Positions 7,654 through 14,777 of a stretch of 64,000 nucleotides of DNA are shown piece by piece. This DNA is from Streptococcus suis (GTDB lineage Bacteria > Bacillota > Bacilli > Lactobacillales > Streptococcaceae). Made by a program: the position numbers and the translations under genes. Every line of letters starts with the position of its first letter. Within the stretch, counting starts at the first letter, position 1. Below the pieces are notes generated by a model, which was not told where the DNA came from, made no database searches, and worked only from the letters and a program-made list of their open reading frames with translations. The stretch is from positions 1-64,000 of the forward strand of contig NZ_WCJE01000008.1 of the NCBI RefSeq assembly GCF_016743335.1. The letters run 5' to 3'.

Positions 7654-8535
7654 ATGACTAATAGTGATATTCGTGCAAGGGCTACTCTTATTCGGGAGAA
7701 TACAGAGGGAATGTTAGCCTTATTTATGGCTCCCGTCTTGATTTCATTTCTGTCAGGCATGCTTAACTATGGCTTGAAACAAATCTGGGGACGAACGGGT
7801 ATCGTCTTTTGGGGAAGTACCATTGTAAAAGATGGGGTAACATGGAGTCACAATTATATATCGCTTGACCCGTCAATCATATTTGATTTTATTGCACAAT
7901 GTTTGATTGTGACGGCGTGTTTTCAACTCATAAGAGTCGTAAGAAAGCAGCGAGACAAGGTCAGCTTTTCAGAGTGTTTTAGTCTACTGGATGGGAAGAA
8001 TTTTTTACCTATTCTGGTCACGACCTTTTTGAAAATGCTCGTTATTTATATAGCTGGTTTCCCAGCTGTCATTGGGATGGCTTTACTTAGTATTTCATTT
8101 TTCAGTACAGTTTTCATTGTTGGGGCTCCGGTTGGCTATCAGCCTGATTTCTCAGGATTTTTTAGCTCCTCCTATTTTCAAATAGGAGTAATCTTAGTCG
8201 TGATTGGCTTGGTTTGTGGTCTATTAGTAGATTATGGTCTCAGTCAGGTTCAATTTCTTCTTTATGATCATTTGGAAAATAATATTTATTCTTCTCCGTT
8301 TAAATTATTCAAACAGAGTTGGCAATTGATGAAAGGTAATAAGTGGCGTCGATTCATGCTTGACTTGTCATTTATTGGTTGGTTCATCGGTATTTTACTG
8401 ACTTTTGGTTTGTTGGCCTTGTATGTTTATCCTTATTATTGGACCTGCCAAGCCCTGTTTTATGAGGATTTGATTGCCAAAAATCCTTTGTTACTTTCGA
8501 GGGTAGATTCCATTTGGTCTTCGGAACTAGGATAA
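7654..8535 (+). CDS. DUF975-family membrane protein
   Basis: A 293-aa multispanning protein with about six hydrophobic segments. The N-terminal pattern (DIRARATLIREN) and the late motif SPFKLFKQSWQLMKGNKWRRF are typical of DUF975 proteins of Firmicutes, whose role is unknown. TATAAT at 7618-7623 and AAAGGAG before the ATG give it its own expression unit. It is convergent with the next gene over a shared terminator. Confidence 0.75.
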   Translation: MTNSDIRARATLIRENTEGMLALFMAPVLISFLSGMLNYGLKQIWGRTGIVFWGSTIVKDGVTWSHNYISLDPSIIFDFIAQCLIVTACFQLIRVVRKQRDKVSFSECFSLLDGKNFLPILVTTFLKMLVIYIAGFPAVIGMALLSISFFSTVFIVGAPVGYQPDFSGFFSSSYFQIGVILVVIGLVCGLLVDYGLSQVQFLLYDHLENNIYSSPFKLFKQSWQLMKGNKWRRFMLDLSFIGWFIGILLTFGLLALYVYPYYWTCQALFYEDLIAKNPLLLSRVDSIWSSELG

Positions 8536-8564
8536 GCATAGATTTTATACAGCTACATTGAAAT

Positions 8565-8623
8565 AAAAATACAGACAGTTTCTGCTGGATTTAGCGATCA
8601 GCAAGATTCTGTCTGTATTTTTT
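8565..8623. terminator. Long bidirectional terminator
   Basis: AAAAATACAGACA pairs with TGTCTGTATTTTT, enclosing a second inner stem (CTGCTG with CAGCAAG). A/T runs flank both sides, and it separates convergent genes. Confidence 0.85.
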
Positions 8624-8633
8624 ATCATCATTG

Positions 8634-9515
8634 CTAAAGTTCAAGTTGTTTTGATGGTGATGTGAAATAGAGTTCATATACCAACCAAGTGATCATACCA
8701 GCTTGGATAAGGAGGCTGATAACTGAGCCTTCCACACCAAATGCACCACCTGACAACCAGTCTGGACCAGAGGTTTCTACTGCGATAAAGGCCTGGCCAG
8801 CCTGTGTTCCGCTCACTGGAAAGGCAAAGACATTTCCTTGGAAACAATTCCAGGCAGCATGTAGACCACCTATTACCCAAAGATTACCGGTTTTTAACAT
8901 GACTAAGCAGGCTAAAATGGCAAAGAGTGTTAGGTCGAGAAGGGGAATGAGGGAAATCCCGTCGTTACCAAGATGGAGAAAGGTAAAAAAGAGGGAGGAA
9001 ACAAGGATACCGACAGGGATATTGTGCTTGGCAGCTAGGGATGAAAACATCCAGCCTCTAGTCAATAATTCCTCTGTTGTGCCTTGAATGGACCAAGCAA
9101 GTACAAGGATAAGAAATTCTCCTACTAAATTCGCTGAGAATTGAAAACTAGTCACTTGAATAGCCCCAAATCCCCACATAAGCAAGACACAGGTGGTTAA
9201 CATAGCAGCACCTATCCCCCAACCAAGTAAGAAGTCTTTCAAAGCTCCTTTTTTTCGTATTCCAAGCCCAAGCCAAGGACTTTTTTCTACAAATCTTGCC
9301 CAGAGTATGATGGCAAGACTGATGAAGGCAAAGGCCAATAATTCAAGACTGAGTGTCACAAAGGCATTATCTATGAAAATGAAAAATAAGGGCATAAAGG
9401 CAAAGTAACCAACTGTTTCAGCTACTGCCATCAAGACCAGTGCTGTGATAGGCGATAGGATAAAATTGAGATTAAAGCGTGATTTGGCTTTCTCTGAAAT
9501 GAATGCTGTTTTCAT
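8634..9515 (-). CDS. CPBP-family intramembrane protease (CAAX-like)
   Basis: A 293-aa membrane protein with about eight hydrophobic segments. The three CPBP motifs are intact: Glu148-Glu149 with Arg153 (EELLTRG), His181 in FLHLG, and His219 with Asn223 (HAAWN). The family includes Rce1-like prenyl proteases and bacteriocin-immunity proteins. The substrate is unknown and there is no bacteriocin gene next to it. Confidence 0.85.
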   Translation of the reverse strand: MKTAFISEKAKSRFNLNFILSPITALVLMAVAETVGYFAFMPLFFIFIDNAFVTLSLELLAFAFISLAIILWARFVEKSPWLGLGIRKKGALKDFLLGWGIGAAMLTTCVLLMWGFGAIQVTSFQFSANLVGEFLILVLAWSIQGTTEELLTRGWMFSSLAAKHNIPVGILVSSLFFTFLHLGNDGISLIPLLDLTLFAILACLVMLKTGNLWVIGGLHAAWNCFQGNVFAFPVSGTQAGQAFIAVETSGPDWLSGGAFGVEGSVISLLIQAGMITWLVYELYFTSPSKQLEL

Positions 9516-9628: not shown

Positions 9629-10246
9629 ATGAAACTAATGGATTGGCTAAGAGATTTTCAATTTGGAGAACACCAATTGGTAGGTCCATTTTTCTATGCA
9701 ACCCCGCTCGCTTTGAAATTTGAAATTGGGCCTGCAGAGGAGGCTGAAGAGCTACCTAGAAAAGTGTATCTGGATAGGGCTTATGCGCGTGCGGTTGAGC
9801 TTTTGGAGCGTGCTAGTTCAGCATACGACTATGTGGTTCTTTCACTGCTTCGCCAGGAAGATAGGGCCATCGACACTTACCTCTGGCATTTTTCATCGAA
9901 ATTTAACTTCGACAAGGTCCCTGAGCCTGAGTTGATAGAAGTGGAGGATTGGACGGGAGATGTGCTAGTCTTTGAGCGCTATCTCTTTCCGGTCGCTGAC
10001 CAAGATTTGAATGCTCTGTTGAAGGAGATTATCAAAGCCGACCATGGTGGTTTTCACTACCTTTCTGCTTCTCTTATCTTTCTATCTAGCAAGGAAAAGG
10101 TTCTGTATCATTGCTATGATGATAGGGGAGTGGATGTCGCGGTGGTGGATGACGACAAGCGTCGTCAGCTTTTTACGGACTGCCATGACCTGCTTTTTGA
10201 CTATGATATGGAGGAGATGGAGAGGAGGATGGATTTTAAAAACTAA
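9629..10246 (+). CDS. DUF3885-like cytosolic protein
   Basis: About 205 aa from the ATG at 9629, chosen because AAAGGAG lies 6-7 bases upstream. A longer frame from 9503 has no ribosome site. No signal peptide or membrane segment. The ending, Tyr-Asp-Met-Glu-Glu-Met-Glu with a preceding conserved CYDDRGVDV, fits DUF3885 proteins, a family without known function. The assignment is from recall of the family pattern. Confidence 0.65.
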   Translation: MKLMDWLRDFQFGEHQLVGPFFYATPLALKFEIGPAEEAEELPRKVYLDRAYARAVELLERASSAYDYVVLSLLRQEDRAIDTYLWHFSSKFNFDKVPEPELIEVEDWTGDVLVFERYLFPVADQDLNALLKEIIKADHGGFHYLSASLIFLSSKEKVLYHCYDDRGVDVAVVDDDKRRQLFTDCHDLLFDYDMEEMERRMDFKN

Positions 10247-10256
10247 TATAAAAATG

Positions 10257-10303
10257 CCCATGATATACTACGTATACCATGGGTTTGACTTTCAGTCAAA
10301 CCC
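10257..10303. promoter_or_regulatory. Two overlapping hairpins sharing GGG
   Basis: The first hairpin is CCCATG.TATAC pairing with GTATA.CATGGG (10257-10283). The second is a perfect 10-bp stem, GGGTTTGACT and AGTCAAACCC (10281-10303). Both need GGG 10281-10283, so only one can be complete at a time. On the minus strand the first is followed by CATTTTTAT, so it may also end minus transcripts. Confidence 0.5.
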
Positions 10304-10358
10304 TAACAACAACAGTCCTATCACAAAATAAGATTAGGAAACTGAATGGTGTGTTTAG

Positions 10359-10364
10359 TATAAT
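10359..10364 (+). promoter_or_regulatory. -10 element upstream of the accessory island
   Basis: TATAAT at 10359-10364. A hairpin (CCAACAC...TTGTA / TACAA...GTGTTAGG, 10385-10420) lies between it and the ATG at 10438. Confidence 0.4.
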
Positions 10365-10437
10365 AACGTGGGTTATTTTTTCAGCCAACACTCCTTTTGT
10401 ACTAATACAAATGTGTTAGGAAAAGCTAGGAGATCTT

Positions 10438-10743
10438 ATGGCAAAGTTTGATATTATTACAATCGAAGACAAGATTCAGCAGTTATTGGAAGTTGGCTTT
10501 GACCAAGCTTCTTTTATCTATGAATTCTTGTCTTTTTATGATATTCCAAAAGCGACAATCACTCGCATCCGTAAAGATAAAAGTGGAGAAATTAAGAACA
10601 AATTGTATTACAAGACGGTTCCTACTGATAAGTCGGTTGTGGCAGGTGTTGCTGAGATTGAAGTGGTAATTAAGGATAAAAAGTCCCAACTTAGAATAAG
10701 ATATTTCATAAATTATAAAGTGTGTGAGGTTGAAAATACGTAA
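10438..10743 (+). CDS. Small protein, probable N-terminal remnant of a larger gene
   Basis: A 101-aa frame with a good AGGAG site. Residues 1-70 (FIYEFLSFYDIPKATITRI...NKLYYKT) resemble the extreme N-terminus of large class I N6-adenine methyltransferase/type IIG-like proteins, where a DLLLAYGLPKATITR-type motif precedes the catalytic part. The last 20 or so residues are AT-rich and lead into the island. I suspect the beginning of a gene whose middle was replaced by the R-M operon, but it may be a functional small protein. No family assignment is certain. Confidence 0.5.
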   Translation: MAKFDIITIEDKIQQLLEVGFDQASFIYEFLSFYDIPKATITRIRKDKSGEIKNKLYYKTVPTDKSVVAGVAEIEVVIKDKKSQLRIRYFINYKVCEVENT

Positions 10744-10781
10744 TATGAATAGGCAGAAAAGGATAGCAAGAGGTTTTAATA

Positions 10782-12881
10782 GTGGGAAACTCAATATTAA
10801 ATAAAGCAAAATACAGTGGGAATAATACAGATGAATGGTATACAGATTATAAAACCGTAGAAAGTGAAGTACAACATTATGAATCTCAATTCATTGGAAA
10901 AAAAGTACTTTGTAATTGTGACAACCCATATGATTCCGCTTTTGCAAAATATTTTCTGAAAAATTTCAATCGATTCAACTTAAAAAAACTGGTATGTATT
11001 TCATATGCAAACTCGGAGATTCATTCAAGTGAAGATGGCAGGGGTCTTATTCTGGAGATTGACGAAATGTCACCTGCTATCATTGATTGTTTAGATGAAA
11101 ACAAGCTCTTTGACATGCTCGTAAATGATAGAAAGCTTCGAAAACTAACTGGTGACGGAGATTTTAGAAGCCCAGAATCTATAAAGTATTTAATCGATTC
11201 TGATATTGTAGTGACAAATCCACCTTTTTCTAAATTTTCAGAATTATTCTCATTGCTAACTAAGTATCATAAGAAATATCTCTTGATTAGCAACCAAAAT
11301 GCAATAACATACAAAGAAATTTTTCCTTATATAAAGAAGAATGAAGCTCGTGTAGGCTACCATTTTGGAGATATGTCATTTAAGGTTCCAGATAGTACTG
11401 AACCAAGAAAAACAAGGTTTTGGGTGGACGAATTTGGTCAAAAATGGAGAAGTTTAGGAAATGCAATGTGGCTTACAAATTTAGAGGTTCCCACTAATAG
11501 CAAAAAGAAGCTTGTTTTGACTCACAAATTCATAGAAGGTAATTATCCGAAGTATGATAATTTTGATGCAATTCACGTTTACAGAGTTTCAGAAATACCA
11601 ATGGATTATTATGGAATAATGGGTGTGCCACTTACATATTTGAAATACCATAATGATGAAATATTTGAAATTGTTGGAGAGGCAAATCATGGTTCTGATA
11701 ATGAGTATGATCTTTTTAAACCAAAAATAAATGGTAAAGAAATGTTTAAGCGAATATTGATAAAAAGACGAGAGAGTGATAAAGAAATGGAATTTAGAAT
11801 ACTTGATTTATTTTGTGGTGCAGGAGGTATGTCGTATGGAATGCATAAAAATCCTCATTTTGTAACAAAAGTTGCATTAGATGTTAACGAAAAGGTCGCA
11901 CAGACGTTCAGAAAAAATATCCCAGGCTCAGAATTGATTATAGGAGATATAAAGGACAAAGAGATAAAGAAAAAAATAATAGATCTTTCGAAAAAAAATA
12001 AAGTAAATATGATTATTGGTGGACCACCATGTCAAGGATTCTCGTTAAAAGGTAAGAAGTTAGGGTTAGAGGACCCTAGGAATTTTTTATTTATAGAATT
12101 TCTTCATTTAGTTAAGGTGTTGCAACCATTAGTTTTTGTAATAGAAAATGTAAAAAATTTGATGTCGACATCAAACGGTTGGTTTAAAGAACAAATTATA
12201 AATGAGATAAAGAAACTAGGTTATGAAGTTAGTGTAGGCATACTTAGAGCAAGTGATTACGGTGTTCCACAAAATAGAGAGAGGGTCATTTTCTTATGTA
12301 GTAAAAAAAATGCAATTTCGTTACCAGAGCCAACAGTCAAAAGCTTAACAACAGTTCGAGATGCTATTGAGGATTTAGCGTATTTGAATTCAAATGAGGG
12401 TGATTTTGAACAGAGTTATATCACAGAAGTAAGAACAGAATATCAAAAGCTTATGAGGAAAGATAGTGTGAAACTATATAACCATAGAGCCTCCAATCAT
12501 TCTGAAATTGCAATTCATAAACTTAGCATGATTCCACCAGAAAAAGGTAAGGAATATCTTCCAAAAAAACTTTTAGGAAAACAAAAATATAAATCAACGT
12601 GGGGTAGATTGAAGTGGGATGAGCCATCCCCTACTATAGATACAAGATTTGATGCAGCATCAAATGGTACAAACAATCATCCATTTTTACATCGTTCTAT
12701 TACACCGAGAGAGGCCGCACGAATTCAGTCGTTTGATGATAGATTTATTTTCTATGGTAGTAAGGTTGATATTAGAACACAAATTGGTAATGCAGTGCCA
12801 CCGCTTATGGCGAAGGCTATTGCTGATCAGATTTATGAAAATTTTGTCAATAATGAGGGTGAGGTAATTGAAAATGAATAA
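10782..12881 (+). CDS. Fused DNA methyltransferase: EcoRI-type adenine MTase + cytosine-5 MTase
   Basis: 699 aa. Residues 1 to about 330 match the EcoRI-type adenine methylase pattern: the start SILNKAK..NTDEWYT, GDGDFRSPE (124-132), catalytic NPPF (146-149), NQNAITYKEIFP, MWLTNL and PMDYYGIMGVP. Residues from about 337 form a complete C5-cytosine methyltransferase: DLFCGAGG (342-349), GGPPCQGFS with catalytic Cys417, ENV, QNRERV, REAARIQSF and GNAVPP. Each half is normally a separate enzyme. The start is GTG with AGAGG upstream and agrees with EcoRI-methylase N-termini. Codon use is AT-rich compared with flanks. The stop overlaps the next gene. The joined activities suggest protection of an asymmetric target, one strand at A and the other at C; this is inference. 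Confidence 0.92.
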   Translation: MGNSILNKAKYSGNNTDEWYTDYKTVESEVQHYESQFIGKKVLCNCDNPYDSAFAKYFLKNFNRFNLKKLVCISYANSEIHSSEDGRGLILEIDEMSPAIIDCLDENKLFDMLVNDRKLRKLTGDGDFRSPESIKYLIDSDIVVTNPPFSKFSELFSLLTKYHKKYLLISNQNAITYKEIFPYIKKNEARVGYHFGDMSFKVPDSTEPRKTRFWVDEFGQKWRSLGNAMWLTNLEVPTNSKKKLVLTHKFIEGNYPKYDNFDAIHVYRVSEIPMDYYGIMGVPLTYLKYHNDEIFEIVGEANHGSDNEYDLFKPKINGKEMFKRILIKRRESDKEMEFRILDLFCGAGGMSYGMHKNPHFVTKVALDVNEKVAQTFRKNIPGSELIIGDIKDKEIKKKIIDLSKKNKVNMIIGGPPCQGFSLKGKKLGLEDPRNFLFIEFLHLVKVLQPLVFVIENVKNLMSTSNGWFKEQIINEIKKLGYEVSVGILRASDYGVPQNRERVIFLCSKKNAISLPEPTVKSLTTVRDAIEDLAYLNSNEGDFEQSYITEVRTEYQKLMRKDSVKLYNHRASNHSEIAIHKLSMIPPEKGKEYLPKKLLGKQKYKSTWGRLKWDEPSPTIDTRFDAASNGTNNHPFLHRSITPREAARIQSFDDRFIFYGSKVDIRTQIGNAVPPLMAKAIADQIYENFVNNEGEVIENE

Positions 12882-13746
12882 TCAAATGGCTTATTTAGTA
12901 GGTATGATATTAGGAAATGGAGAAGTACAAAGGGATACCAATTACACCACAGTTACGATAGAGATACCCCATAAAAATTTACGAGATGATGAAGGGTTAG
13001 AAGTTTCAGTATATGTAAAAAGTAGTTTAGCTGATATTAGAAGTATTATTGAGCCGCTGTTAGGACATTCACTGCCTATTTCACAAACAAAGAATGTAAC
13101 AAGGGTGTCTTTTACAAAGTCTAATGAAGATTATACTATGAGAGAGATTCTCAGATTTATTGGAAATGGTGTTCACCATTCAACTATGGTAATGAATGGT
13201 GAATTATTTAATATGACTATTGATGAGAAGAAGGAATTGCTCAGAGGGGTAGCAGACGTGACTGGCTACATTAGGAAAAGTAATCTGGCTTTTGGTCAAG
13301 ATGGATGTCATAGAGTGTACATTGAGATTCCAGGTAACTGGCAATTTGTTATAGATATAGCTAATATGTTGAAAACATTAGATATACCCGTTCAAACAAT
13401 AGATTTTGGTCATCCTAACTTCAGAGATTCTAATTTAAAAAAATATAAGCAAGGAAAAACGAAATATTGGAAAAAGGAACACCAAGTTAAAATATGGGCA
13501 AATGAGTTTCTACCTATAGGATTTAATGTTGTTCACAAGCAAAGGGCATTAGAACGATATGCAGAAGAATTACTTGATTATTTAGATGAAAATAAAACCC
13601 ATCAATTCTATTGGGAGAAAGCTGTTAGGTTAAGAAGCAAGCCGATTCACCCAATGGAAAATGATGATAGTTTACCCGAAAAAATAAGAGGAAAGCATTT
13701 TGATTCATGGACTCAATTAGCAAAAGAGTTAGGATATGGCGAATAA
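12874..13746 (+). CDS. LAGLIDADG-like protein of an R-M operon
   Basis: About 290 aa from ATG 12874, with GAGGT 9 bases upstream. Its first codons overlap the end of the methyltransferase gene by 8 bases. Two segments have the form of LAGLIDADG helices: YLVGMILGNGEV near residue 7 and LLRGVADVTGYI near residue 126. Each is followed by a beta-rich stretch and then helices, as in two-repeat homing endonucleases (VYIEIPGNWQFVIDIANMLKTL resembles the post-motif region). The acidic residue that normally ends each motif is Asn in the first and Thr in the second, so cleavage by this protein alone is doubtful. It could be a DNA-recognition subunit. No intein or intron context is present. Confidence 0.6.
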   Translation: MNNQMAYLVGMILGNGEVQRDTNYTTVTIEIPHKNLRDDEGLEVSVYVKSSLADIRSIIEPLLGHSLPISQTKNVTRVSFTKSNEDYTMREILRFIGNGVHHSTMVMNGELFNMTIDEKKELLRGVADVTGYIRKSNLAFGQDGCHRVYIEIPGNWQFVIDIANMLKTLDIPVQTIDFGHPNFRDSNLKKYKQGKTKYWKKEHQVKIWANEFLPIGFNVVHKQRALERYAEELLDYLDENKTHQFYWEKAVRLRSKPIHPMENDDSLPEKIRGKHFDSWTQLAKELGYGE

Positions 13747-14239
13747 GGTAAGAAGTGAATTTGAGTTATACCCAGGTATGGTCAAATGGTTAGATACATA
13801 CCTTAGGGAAAAGTTTAAAAACAAGAGGTGTGAAGTATTTGTATTAGATTGTCACTCCGTATATTTAGATTCAATTTTAAATAAATATGATGTAATACAA
13901 TATTTTCCACAAGTTGTTGGATTGAAAATTGAAATTGATGTTTTGGGGATTGTAAGATGGAAAGATAGAGCTGAAATCTATTTTGTTGAAGCGAAAAAGG
14001 CAGCGTTAACTCTTCAAAATTTAGGACAATTATTGATATATTGTAAACTTTGTAATCCCGAAGAAGCATATTTATTATCATCTGATGGGTTAGGGAGCCT
14101 ACAAAAAGTTTTAATCAATTTAAAAAGAGAAGATTTGCTTGATTATGGGAGTGGAAAACGAATAAAAAAAATTAATGTAGCCAGATGGGATATTTCGAAG
14201 GATGGAGTAGATAATCATTCTATCATACCTAAAATATAG
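13736..14239 (+). CDS. Small PD-(D/E)XK nuclease, probable restriction subunit
   Basis: 167 aa. The core reads EIDVLG (Asp68), then after about 15 residues FVEAKK (Glu85, Lys87), then Gln98 and Tyr102 (GQLLIY): the pattern of PD-(D/E)XK nucleases with a QxxxY-like helix. At this size it is nearly only a catalytic domain, with little room for sequence recognition. It overlaps the previous gene by 11 bases and is the last gene of the operon, so a joint role with the LAGLIDADG-like protein as the restriction arm is likely but inferred. No homologue was recognised by name. Confidence 0.7.
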   Translation: MANKVRSEFELYPGMVKWLDTYLREKFKNKRCEVFVLDCHSVYLDSILNKYDVIQYFPQVVGLKIEIDVLGIVRWKDRAEIYFVEAKKAALTLQNLGQLLIYCKLCNPEEAYLLSSDGLGSLQKVLINLKREDLLDYGSGKRIKKINVARWDISKDGVDNHSIIPKI

Positions 14240-14277
14240 AGTTTTGTGGTTTAAAAAGGGATTGCTTGAATTAGAAG

Positions 14278-14415
14278 ATGGGCACACTTAATGCTGTAAA
14301 GCAGGATGCCTTCTACGATAAACGCGTTCAACTGGAGACTATTTCTCCAACCGGAAAAAAAGTTTCCGTTACTGAATGGTTTGTGGTAGAATTAGAACAA
14401 ATTGAAAAAAAATAA
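14278..14415 (+). pseudogene. Short C-terminal remnant at the right edge of the island
   Basis: A 45-aa frame (beginning MGTLNAVKQDAFYDKRVQL, ending VVELEQIEKK) whose codon use is back to the chromosomal style. It reads like the tail of a larger protein, and AAGATG here is probably not a true start. Together with the N-terminal-looking fragment at 10438-10743 it may bracket the site where the R-M operon replaced another gene. No family identified. Confidence 0.4.
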
Positions 14416-14475
14416 ATGAGCTTTTTAAACAACTAAATCTATGACAGATTATCAGCTAAACCAAAGGAGAAGTAT

Positions 14476-14562
14476 ATGGGTGCATTTCTATTTTTTACAT
14501 TTGCGATTTGTTATCTGGTAGGCATTATCGCTATAACGATTGGTCTCAGACGTAGGAAGTAG
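14476..14562 (+). CDS. 28-aa single-span membrane peptide
   Basis: ATG with AAAGGAGAAG upstream; MGAFLFFTFAI... forms one hydrophobic helix ending in RRRK. It is followed within 13 bases by a second peptide of the same design. Function unknown. The ribosome site and the positive-inside end make translation plausible. Confidence 0.5.
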   Translation: MGAFLFFTFAICYLVGIIAITIGLRRRK

Positions 14563-14574
14563 GAGGAAAGACAA

Positions 14575-14700
14575 ATGGAAGAACTCTTTATGAAACTCTT
14601 GATTTGGTTTTTAATCTTGCTTTGGGCCTCACCTGTAATTATTGTCGCATTGGCAGGTGGTTTTGTCATTTTAAGCCTATTGTTTGGCAGAAGGAAATAA
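14575..14700 (+). CDS. 41-aa membrane peptide
   Basis: ATG with AGGAGGAAAG upstream. One or two hydrophobic stretches, ending in FGRRK. It forms a pair with the preceding 28-aa peptide and precedes a membrane protein gene. Size and design resemble small type I toxin or regulatory membrane peptides, but no antisense RNA or partner could be identified. Confidence 0.5.
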   Translation: MEELFMKLLIWFLILLWASPVIIVALAGGFVILSLLFGRRK

Positions 14701-14777
14701 TGATATTGAAGCATTGCAAAAGAATGGAACCTATCGTAAAATGGTAGTATATTTCAGATATTCAGGAGGGGCTTGTT

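Follow-up and report, generated by a model that had tools for sequence, protein, structure and literature searches.

The 64,000-nucleotide stretch analysed here (the window; NCBI RefSeq assembly GCF_016743335.1, contig NZ_WCJE01000008.1, positions 1 to 64,000) comes from a Streptococcus suis-like genome and carries, at 10782-14239, three overlapping genes on the forward strand, here called M, P2 and P3. M (10782..12881, +) starts at GTG and encodes a 699-amino-acid (aa) fused DNA methyltransferase with an adenine and a cytosine part; P2 (12868..13746, +) starts at TTG 12868 (292 aa) or at ATG 12874 and is the proposed recognition subunit of a candidate restriction-modification (R-M) system; and P3 (13736..14239, +; ATG start, 167 aa) encodes a small PD-(D/E)XK nuclease, the proposed cleavage subunit. 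The initial annotation, made from the sequence and its reading frames, had described overlaps of 8 and 11 bases within an AT-rich block, and both descriptions hold: M and P2 overlap by 8 bases when P2 is counted from ATG 12874, P2 and P3 overlap by 11, and GC content in 1-kb intervals is 31-34% over 10500-14500 against 37-48% in the flanks on both sides. The nearest named loci to the trio are from Streptococcus suis, with a P2 protein that is 99% identical.

Profile matches far above the Pfam cut-offs place an EcoRI-type adenine methylase and a complete C5-cytosine methylase in the single chain of M, in agreement with the earlier reading of this gene. Residues 6-329 (10797..11768, +) form the EcoRI-type N6-adenine methyltransferase domain (EcoRI_methylase, PF13651; E 2.5e-94, 316.9 bits against a cut-off of 26.4), with NPPF at aa 146-149. 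Residues 338-685 (11793..12836, +) form the C5-cytosine methyltransferase domain (DNA_methylase, PF00145; E 4.2e-74, 250.3 bits against a cut-off of 22), in which PPCQ, ENV, QNRER and GNAVPP were located. NPPF is kept in 66 of 67 EcoRI-type relatives, the exception being truncated by a contig end, and PPCQ, ENV and QxRxR, motifs with established roles in C5 methylases, are kept in 75 of 76 C5 relatives, the exception being a broken locus (L019). Beside an annotated EcoRI on the E. coli plasmid pU90-3 lies a methylase with 43.9% identity to the adenine part of M.

For P2, nothing in Pfam reached its cut-off, NCBIfam and PADLOC were without a match, and PHROG gave one at E 0.061; sequence searches of the PDB returned nothing meaningful for P2 or P3. 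The AlphaFold2 model of P2, built from a 77-row alignment, has a predicted local distance difference test (pLDDT) score of 89.0 and a predicted template modelling (pTM) score of 0.89, and Foldseek found 39 matches to it at E<=0.001, every one a LAGLIDADG protein, whether a homing endonuclease or engineered variant of one, an intein, a maturase or WhiA. In VIA comparisons P2 aligned with PI-SceI over 187 residues (Z 15.3, root-mean-square deviation (rmsd) 3.3), with I-DmoI over 167 (Z 13.8, rmsd 2.9) and with WhiA over 186 (Z 13.0, rmsd 3.7). Weak Pfam matches of LAGLIDADG type occur among the 77 P2 proteins (Hom_end in three, LAGLIDADG_2 and LAGLIDADG_3 in one each); their commonest Pfam match, DUF2525 (13 of 77 members, best E 0.0021), was judged to be chance.

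Active LAGLIDADG enzymes carry an acid as the last residue of each motif, and loss of these acids abolishes cleavage. The corresponding positions of P2, which the motif register of the family places at Asn17 in motif 1 (12916..12918, +) and Thr132 in motif 2 (13261..13263, +), are N and T, respectively, in 77 of 77 sequences, the window included; in two distant homologues, at 35% and 21% identity, the residue pairs are R/A and G/I, never acidic. Glu19 is also conserved (74/77), as are D130 and the C-terminal tail of P2 (H261-Y290). P2 has the fold of LAGLIDADG homing endonucleases with no acid at the end of either motif and, judged by its predicted structure and alignment, is a LAGLIDADG-fold protein without catalytic acids, which is how the initial annotation had characterised it (a homing-endonuclease scaffold with the acids lost).

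Like P2, P3 stayed below every Pfam cut-off and matched neither NCBIfam nor PADLOC, with one PHROG match at E 0.027; the Pfam family PPL4 (E 0.0014, 18.9 bits against a cut-off of 25) was judged to be chance. The AlphaFold2 model of P3 (pLDDT 95.0) aligned by VIA with PaqCI (Z 8.4, rmsd 4.2, 128 residues), EcoT38I (Z 8.0, rmsd 3.4, 122 residues), the small subunit of R.BspD6I (2p14; Z 7.2, rmsd 3.5, 115 residues) and FokI (Z 7.0, rmsd 4.2, 120 residues), so that its structural matches take in Type IIS cleavage domains; they also include the modification-dependent enzymes MspJI and AspBHI. The active-site core (13937..13996, +) consists of Asp68 (13937-13939), Glu85 (13988-13990) and Lys87 (13994-13996). 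All 74 aligned sequences, the window included, carry these residues as well as E8 and Q98, and so does a P3-like protein of 23% identity at a distant locus (L115). The predicted fold and the invariant D...ExK motif identify P3 as a PD-(D/E)XK nuclease domain, again as first proposed. Since the acids of P2 are lost and the residues of P3 are kept even in distant homologues, the family has one recognisable active site, that of P3.

Relatives of P2 were found in two phages, in two plasmids (with an identical P2 protein), in IMG/VR contigs and at 138 genome loci, with details for the best 80 of the 138. We assembled a neighbourhood set of 88 loci besides the window, from which 13 repeated records had been dropped and in which genes were classed by similarity to the query proteins. 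P3 lies directly 3′ of P2 at 86 of these loci and overlaps it at 85 (longest reading frames). Adenine methylases occur at 86 of the 88, the two misses falling on contigs of 3.1 and 3.3 kb, and C5 methylases at 76; the remaining 12 carry an N4/N6-type methylase. The trio flagged in the window thus turns up again in phages, on plasmids and across a wide set of bacteria, and is not a chance arrangement. Among the named isolates are Streptococcus, Streptobacillus (with a broken copy), Peptoniphilus (P. asaccharolyticus DSM 20463), [Ruminococcus] torques (ATCC 27756), Ruminococcus albus (strain 8) and Treponema socranskii; a Lactiplantibacillus plantarum plasmid (NZ_CP060181) also has a version, and loci in metagenome bins include Bacteroidales, Desulfobulbaceae, Alphaproteobacteria and Saccharibacteria. 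Five of 284 Streptococcus genomes have P2, and P3 is found in four, all of them among these five. In four annotated records P2 and P3 are listed as hypothetical proteins.

The methylases around the P2-P3 pair are exchangeable. EcoRI-type and C5 enzymes are paired at 67 loci, TaqI-like and N4/N6-type at 12, and TaqI-like and C5 at seven, with C5 alone at two, and the pair changes at least five times on a quick P2 tree of 86 complete loci. All four TaqI-like enzymes scanned (L011, L072, L073 and L088) match the Pfam family N6_Mtase, and NPPY is present in 19 of 19; all four N4/N6-type enzymes scanned (L011, L072, L091 and L095) match N6_N4_Mtase, and SPPYW is present in 12 of 12. SPP motifs such as SPPYW are typical of N4-cytosine enzymes, and N4-cytosine is the probable target of the N4/N6-type methylases on the strength of this motif. 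At the 67 EcoRI-type and C5 loci the two activities are fused in 31 and split in 36, a few of the split ones being broken or cut (L019 is frameshifted and L039 is cut at a contig end); at L010 they are separate overlapping genes. Because fused and split forms alternate, with about 14 changes of state on the P2 tree, we regard the fusion as incidental, and we rejected it as an essential novelty of the system.

No locus of the 88 carries P2-P3 without any methylase, and the two loci at which a profile search in all frames found no P3 (L011 and L030) retain both methylases; this is what would be expected if P2-P3 were toxic without protection. At L030 an open reading frame (ORF) of about 260 codons that the P3 profile does not match lies 3′ of P2 (~7960-8750) in place of P3. 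A further locus, L116, resembles a methylase-P2 deletion chimera.

The target-recognition region of a C5 methylase normally diverges when specificity changes. In this family the region (aa 510-625) is 66.1% identical between two P2 subfamilies, compared with 65.5% for the N-terminal catalytic part and 73.7% for the C-terminal part (885 pairs), and 65.0% identical between loci with EcoRI-type and with TaqI-like partners, compared with 66.4% and 69.8% (413 pairs). Its conservation, equal to that of the N-terminal catalytic part even across the swap of adenine partner, suggests, in a comparison confined to members of this family, one shared target that is marked on an adenine and on a cytosine, presumably with one mark on each strand. 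Pairwise identities are most strongly correlated between P2 and P3 (r 0.75, 86 loci), followed by P2 and C5 (0.62, 75 loci) and P2 and the EcoRI-type enzyme (0.50, 66 loci). A scan for under-represented words over 652 kb of flanking sequence, made with no control set, put GGACC, CCAGG, six-base palindromes and A-rich words among the most depleted, and none could be linked to the system as its recognition site.

We consider it likely that the operon is a Type II-like R-M system whose endonuclease consists of P2 for recognition and P3 for cleavage, probably at an asymmetric site. P2 would keep its DNA-binding fold and read a specific, probably asymmetric DNA sequence, and P3, translated from the overlapping frame, would be recruited by P2 and would cleave. 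Because P2 is without an active site, cleavage of both strands would need two copies of P3, either as a P3 dimer or through the meeting of two P2-P3 complexes; otherwise the complex would nick. The methylase parts would guard the host site, by N6-adenine methylation on one strand and C5-cytosine methylation on the other, and the trio would restrict phage. The operon order and domains are those of a Type II system, with a methylase gene adjoining a candidate cognate endonuclease, and no ATPase or helicase family was matched by Pfam in the trio proteins; its chromosomal position, moreover, looks like one at which R-M systems replace each other. A closely similar scheme had been put forward in the initial annotation, with the LAGLIDADG-like protein reading, the small nuclease cutting and the fusion protecting both strands. 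Its division of labour is favoured by the sequence comparisons, in that P2 and P3 stay paired while the methylases swap and the active site is found only in P3, in distant homologues as well; the weight that it placed on the fusion has been reduced.

With less assurance, yet still on balance, we favour a broader proposition, namely that these loci form a restriction family of wide distribution, with a domesticated and catalytically dead homing endonuclease reading the sequence for a generic PD-(D/E)XK cutter. One site would be shared across several phyla, and the adenine (EcoRI-type or TaqI-like) and cytosine (C5 or probably N4) methylases would each have been replaced, lineage by lineage, by unrelated enzymes, a deeper branch represented by L115 having moved to another site. 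At L115 (5931-8978) the target-recognition region of the C5 methylase is unalignable with that of the main family, which suggests a deeper branch with another site.

Several observations weigh against the interpretation of the operon as a Type II-like system read by P2 and cut by P3. Foldseek returned nothing for P3 at E<=0.001, and the fold assignment is that given by VIA Z scores of up to 8.4 together with the motif. The 88 loci are related to one another (83 different P2 sequences), include many metagenome bins and were collected with P2 as the seed. In 398 genomes of the phylum a P2-like protein was found in four and P3 in one, the window's own, which is too few for an unbiased test of co-occurrence. 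The locus L011 has P2 without P3; P2 may serve otherwise there, or the locus may be decaying. The best named NCBIfam matches of the four N4/N6-type enzymes are adenine-specific models, far below cut-off. Of the three distant P2 relatives in the phylum sample (L114, L115 and L116), L114 has its P2 homologue next to a single SPPYW methylase and a transposase-like gene, with no P3 found, and L115 has one C5 methylase seen, a 464-aa P2-like protein (21% identity) and a P3-like gene, so that two methylases are not universal in distant relatives. Finally, R.BspD6I has a large subunit that nicks, and its small subunit needs that large one in catalytically active form in order to work (PMC6261011); a reader that is itself inactive, paired with one small cutter, departs from this in earnest. 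Searches with the P2-like proteins of L115 and L114 gave no further homologues in viral contigs or in 18 other genomes of the order of G524, and the L115 query against plasmids and the L114 query against phages matched the main family again and nothing more.

The chief competing explanation is that P2 regulates transcription, as WhiA or the C proteins of R-M systems do, and that P3 alone is the restriction enzyme; we consider this unlikely. C genes often lie just before R genes, and L011 has retained P2 in the absence of P3. The structural match to WhiA is strong (Z 13.0), and WhiA is a LAGLIDADG relative that has lost its catalytic residues and binds promoters (PMC4255298). Although P2 is highly conserved, no exact word of 6-9 bases upstream of 58 non-redundant loci exceeded its frequency in shuffled sequence, a crude test that would miss degenerate motifs. 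The WhiA model is moreover absent from the 14 Pfam families that any of the 77 P2 proteins matches at E<=0.1, in what is a sequence-profile test only. P3, at 167 aa, would by itself have to read a site guarded by two different methylases, and it is P2 and P3 that show the strongest identity correlation of the pairs tested while the methylases are swapped around them. A second rival holds that P2 is still a nuclease through unusual residues, making a Type IIT-like heterodimer of one LAGLIDADG and one PD-(D/E)XK site. Conservation of N17, E19 (74/77), D130 and T132 implies constraint on the former active site, but both catalytic positions are free of acids in all 77 sequences and are R/A and G/I in the distant homologues, and with acid loss known to abolish cleavage we find this improbable.

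More doubtful still is that P2-P3 is a selfish homing-type nuclease travelling with a methylase cassette, as its LAGLIDADG ancestry and its carriage by phages, plasmids and variable chromosomal sites might suggest. The constant presence of two methylases, replaced by non-homologous ones, fits self-protection instead, and the neighbourhoods that were read showed no sign of an intron or intein, though no search was aimed at either. The appearance of the modification-dependent PD-(D/E)XK enzymes MspJI and AspBHI among the structural matches of P3 raises the least probable of these readings, to which we give very little credence, that the methylases regulate genes while P2-P3 attacks modified or otherwise foreign DNA in a Type IV-like manner; a modification-dependent nuclease needs no adjoining methylase, and in 88 loci P2-P3 is never without one.

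If P2 reads and P3 cuts, the system resembles several known ones without coinciding with any. R.BspD6I, BtsI and BsrDI likewise have two R genes and a small PD-(D/E)XK subunit without a recognition domain, but their large subunit both reads the site and cuts one strand, whereas P2 is without catalytic acids and the only catalytic site found is that of P3. Type IIT and IIS heterodimers also share the two methylases, sometimes in one chain (PMC4081073). Type IIT is defined there by two different catalytic sites, and only P3 has one here, which places the system outside that type; of the two methylases acting one per strand of an asymmetric site, two methylase domains are present, while the asymmetry of the site and the strand assignment are predicted. 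Alw26I, Eco31I and Esp3I pair one m6A with one m5C methylase, acting on complementary strands according to the cited title (PMC4659465), but the Eco31I-type locus has a single cognate restriction endonuclease, with no LAGLIDADG part described, where the present operon has two R genes, P2 and P3. The TaqI-like methylases of L011, L072, L073 and L088 score 57.7-66.5 bits against the Alw26I-family model, well below its cut-off of 353.5 and about as high as they do against BREX PglX models. The EcoRI R-M system has an adenine methylase of the same Pfam family (43.9% identical to that of M), but P2 and P3 match no EcoRI endonuclease model, and the present operon has an extra C5 methylase and other R genes.

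From the LAGLIDADG side, P2 shares the duplicated fold with PI-SceI and I-DmoI and differs from both in being acid-free, which takes it outside the definition of a homing endonuclease, and in being tied to methylases and a separate nuclease. WhiA (DUF199) likewise combines the fold and DNA binding with loss of catalysis (PMC4255298); it is, however, a transcription factor with a sigma-factor-like second domain, and P2, which shares the fold and sits in an R-M operon, has no Pfam match to such a C-terminal helix-turn-helix domain, again by sequence profile only. According to a 2023 paper, LAGLIDADG enzymes had not been described in R-M systems until then, and PMC4619093 reports that the LAGLIDADG and HNH motifs once proposed in the Type IV enzyme GmrS are not present. 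Full-text literature searches, judged from their listings and not covering subscription papers or REBASE, gave no LAGLIDADG protein described as an R-M subunit. The part without precedent in these searches is the dead LAGLIDADG subunit; the methylase pair and the two-subunit endonuclease have precedents (PMC4081073, PMC4659465). The claim that no described R-M type has this combination stands for that subunit as far as these searches go and lapses for the adenine and cytosine methylase pair, which is known at asymmetric sites.

Were P2 the reader, the scaffold of a homing endonuclease would have become the specificity subunit of a restriction enzyme. Two classes of site-specific DNA enzymes would thereby be connected, and recognition and cutting would be split over two small proteins of 292 and 167 aa. 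Such a system might offer a new asymmetric restriction specificity and a natural split reader and cutter architecture for engineering, a natural counterpart of engineered FokI fusions, and would assign a function to the P2 relatives at 138 genome loci.

Other genes accompany the family at some loci. A TrlF-family PHP+AAA ATPase, related to the anti-phage protein Ppl, follows P3 at five of the 88 loci; genes of this family are listed at L010 (6403-8991) and L014 (1955-4543) and also at L017, L018, L019 and L067, and the L014 copy scores 570 bits against NF045780 (cut-off 350). The ATPase might be a guard or a second line of the system. A protein of about 111-125 aa occurs in varying position at 18 of 88 loci (L011 6842-7192; L034, L055, L069, L075 and others), with no Pfam match above cut-off for the L011 copy. 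At six other loci a protein of 341-358 aa lies 5′ of P2, its N-terminus similar by eye to the shorter protein, and both of those tested have a NOV_C C-terminus. On two Lactobacillaceae plasmids (L119 1934-4106 and L120 802-2981) an EcoRI-family adenine methylase is followed by a DUF262 gene, with no annotated EcoRI adjoining.

The trio occupies an exchange site between a DUF3885 gene and a gene for a 249-aa protein, which we delimited by comparing 10232-14777 of the window with L107 and L108. In one genome (G252) the site is empty, the same flanks (98.4% and 95.8% identical) lying about 90 bases apart, compared with 4.5 kb in the window; in another (G247) the same upstream gene is followed by genes that look by eye like Type III mod and res. 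Just 5′ of M, an ORF of 101 codons (10438-10743, +) matches through its residues 6-64 the N-termini of plasmid methylases (up to 47.8% identity, 19 records), several of them annotated as Type IIL MmeI. From this similarity the ORF is probably what is left of an R-M system that occupied this position before, and the locus looks like a turnover site for R-M systems.

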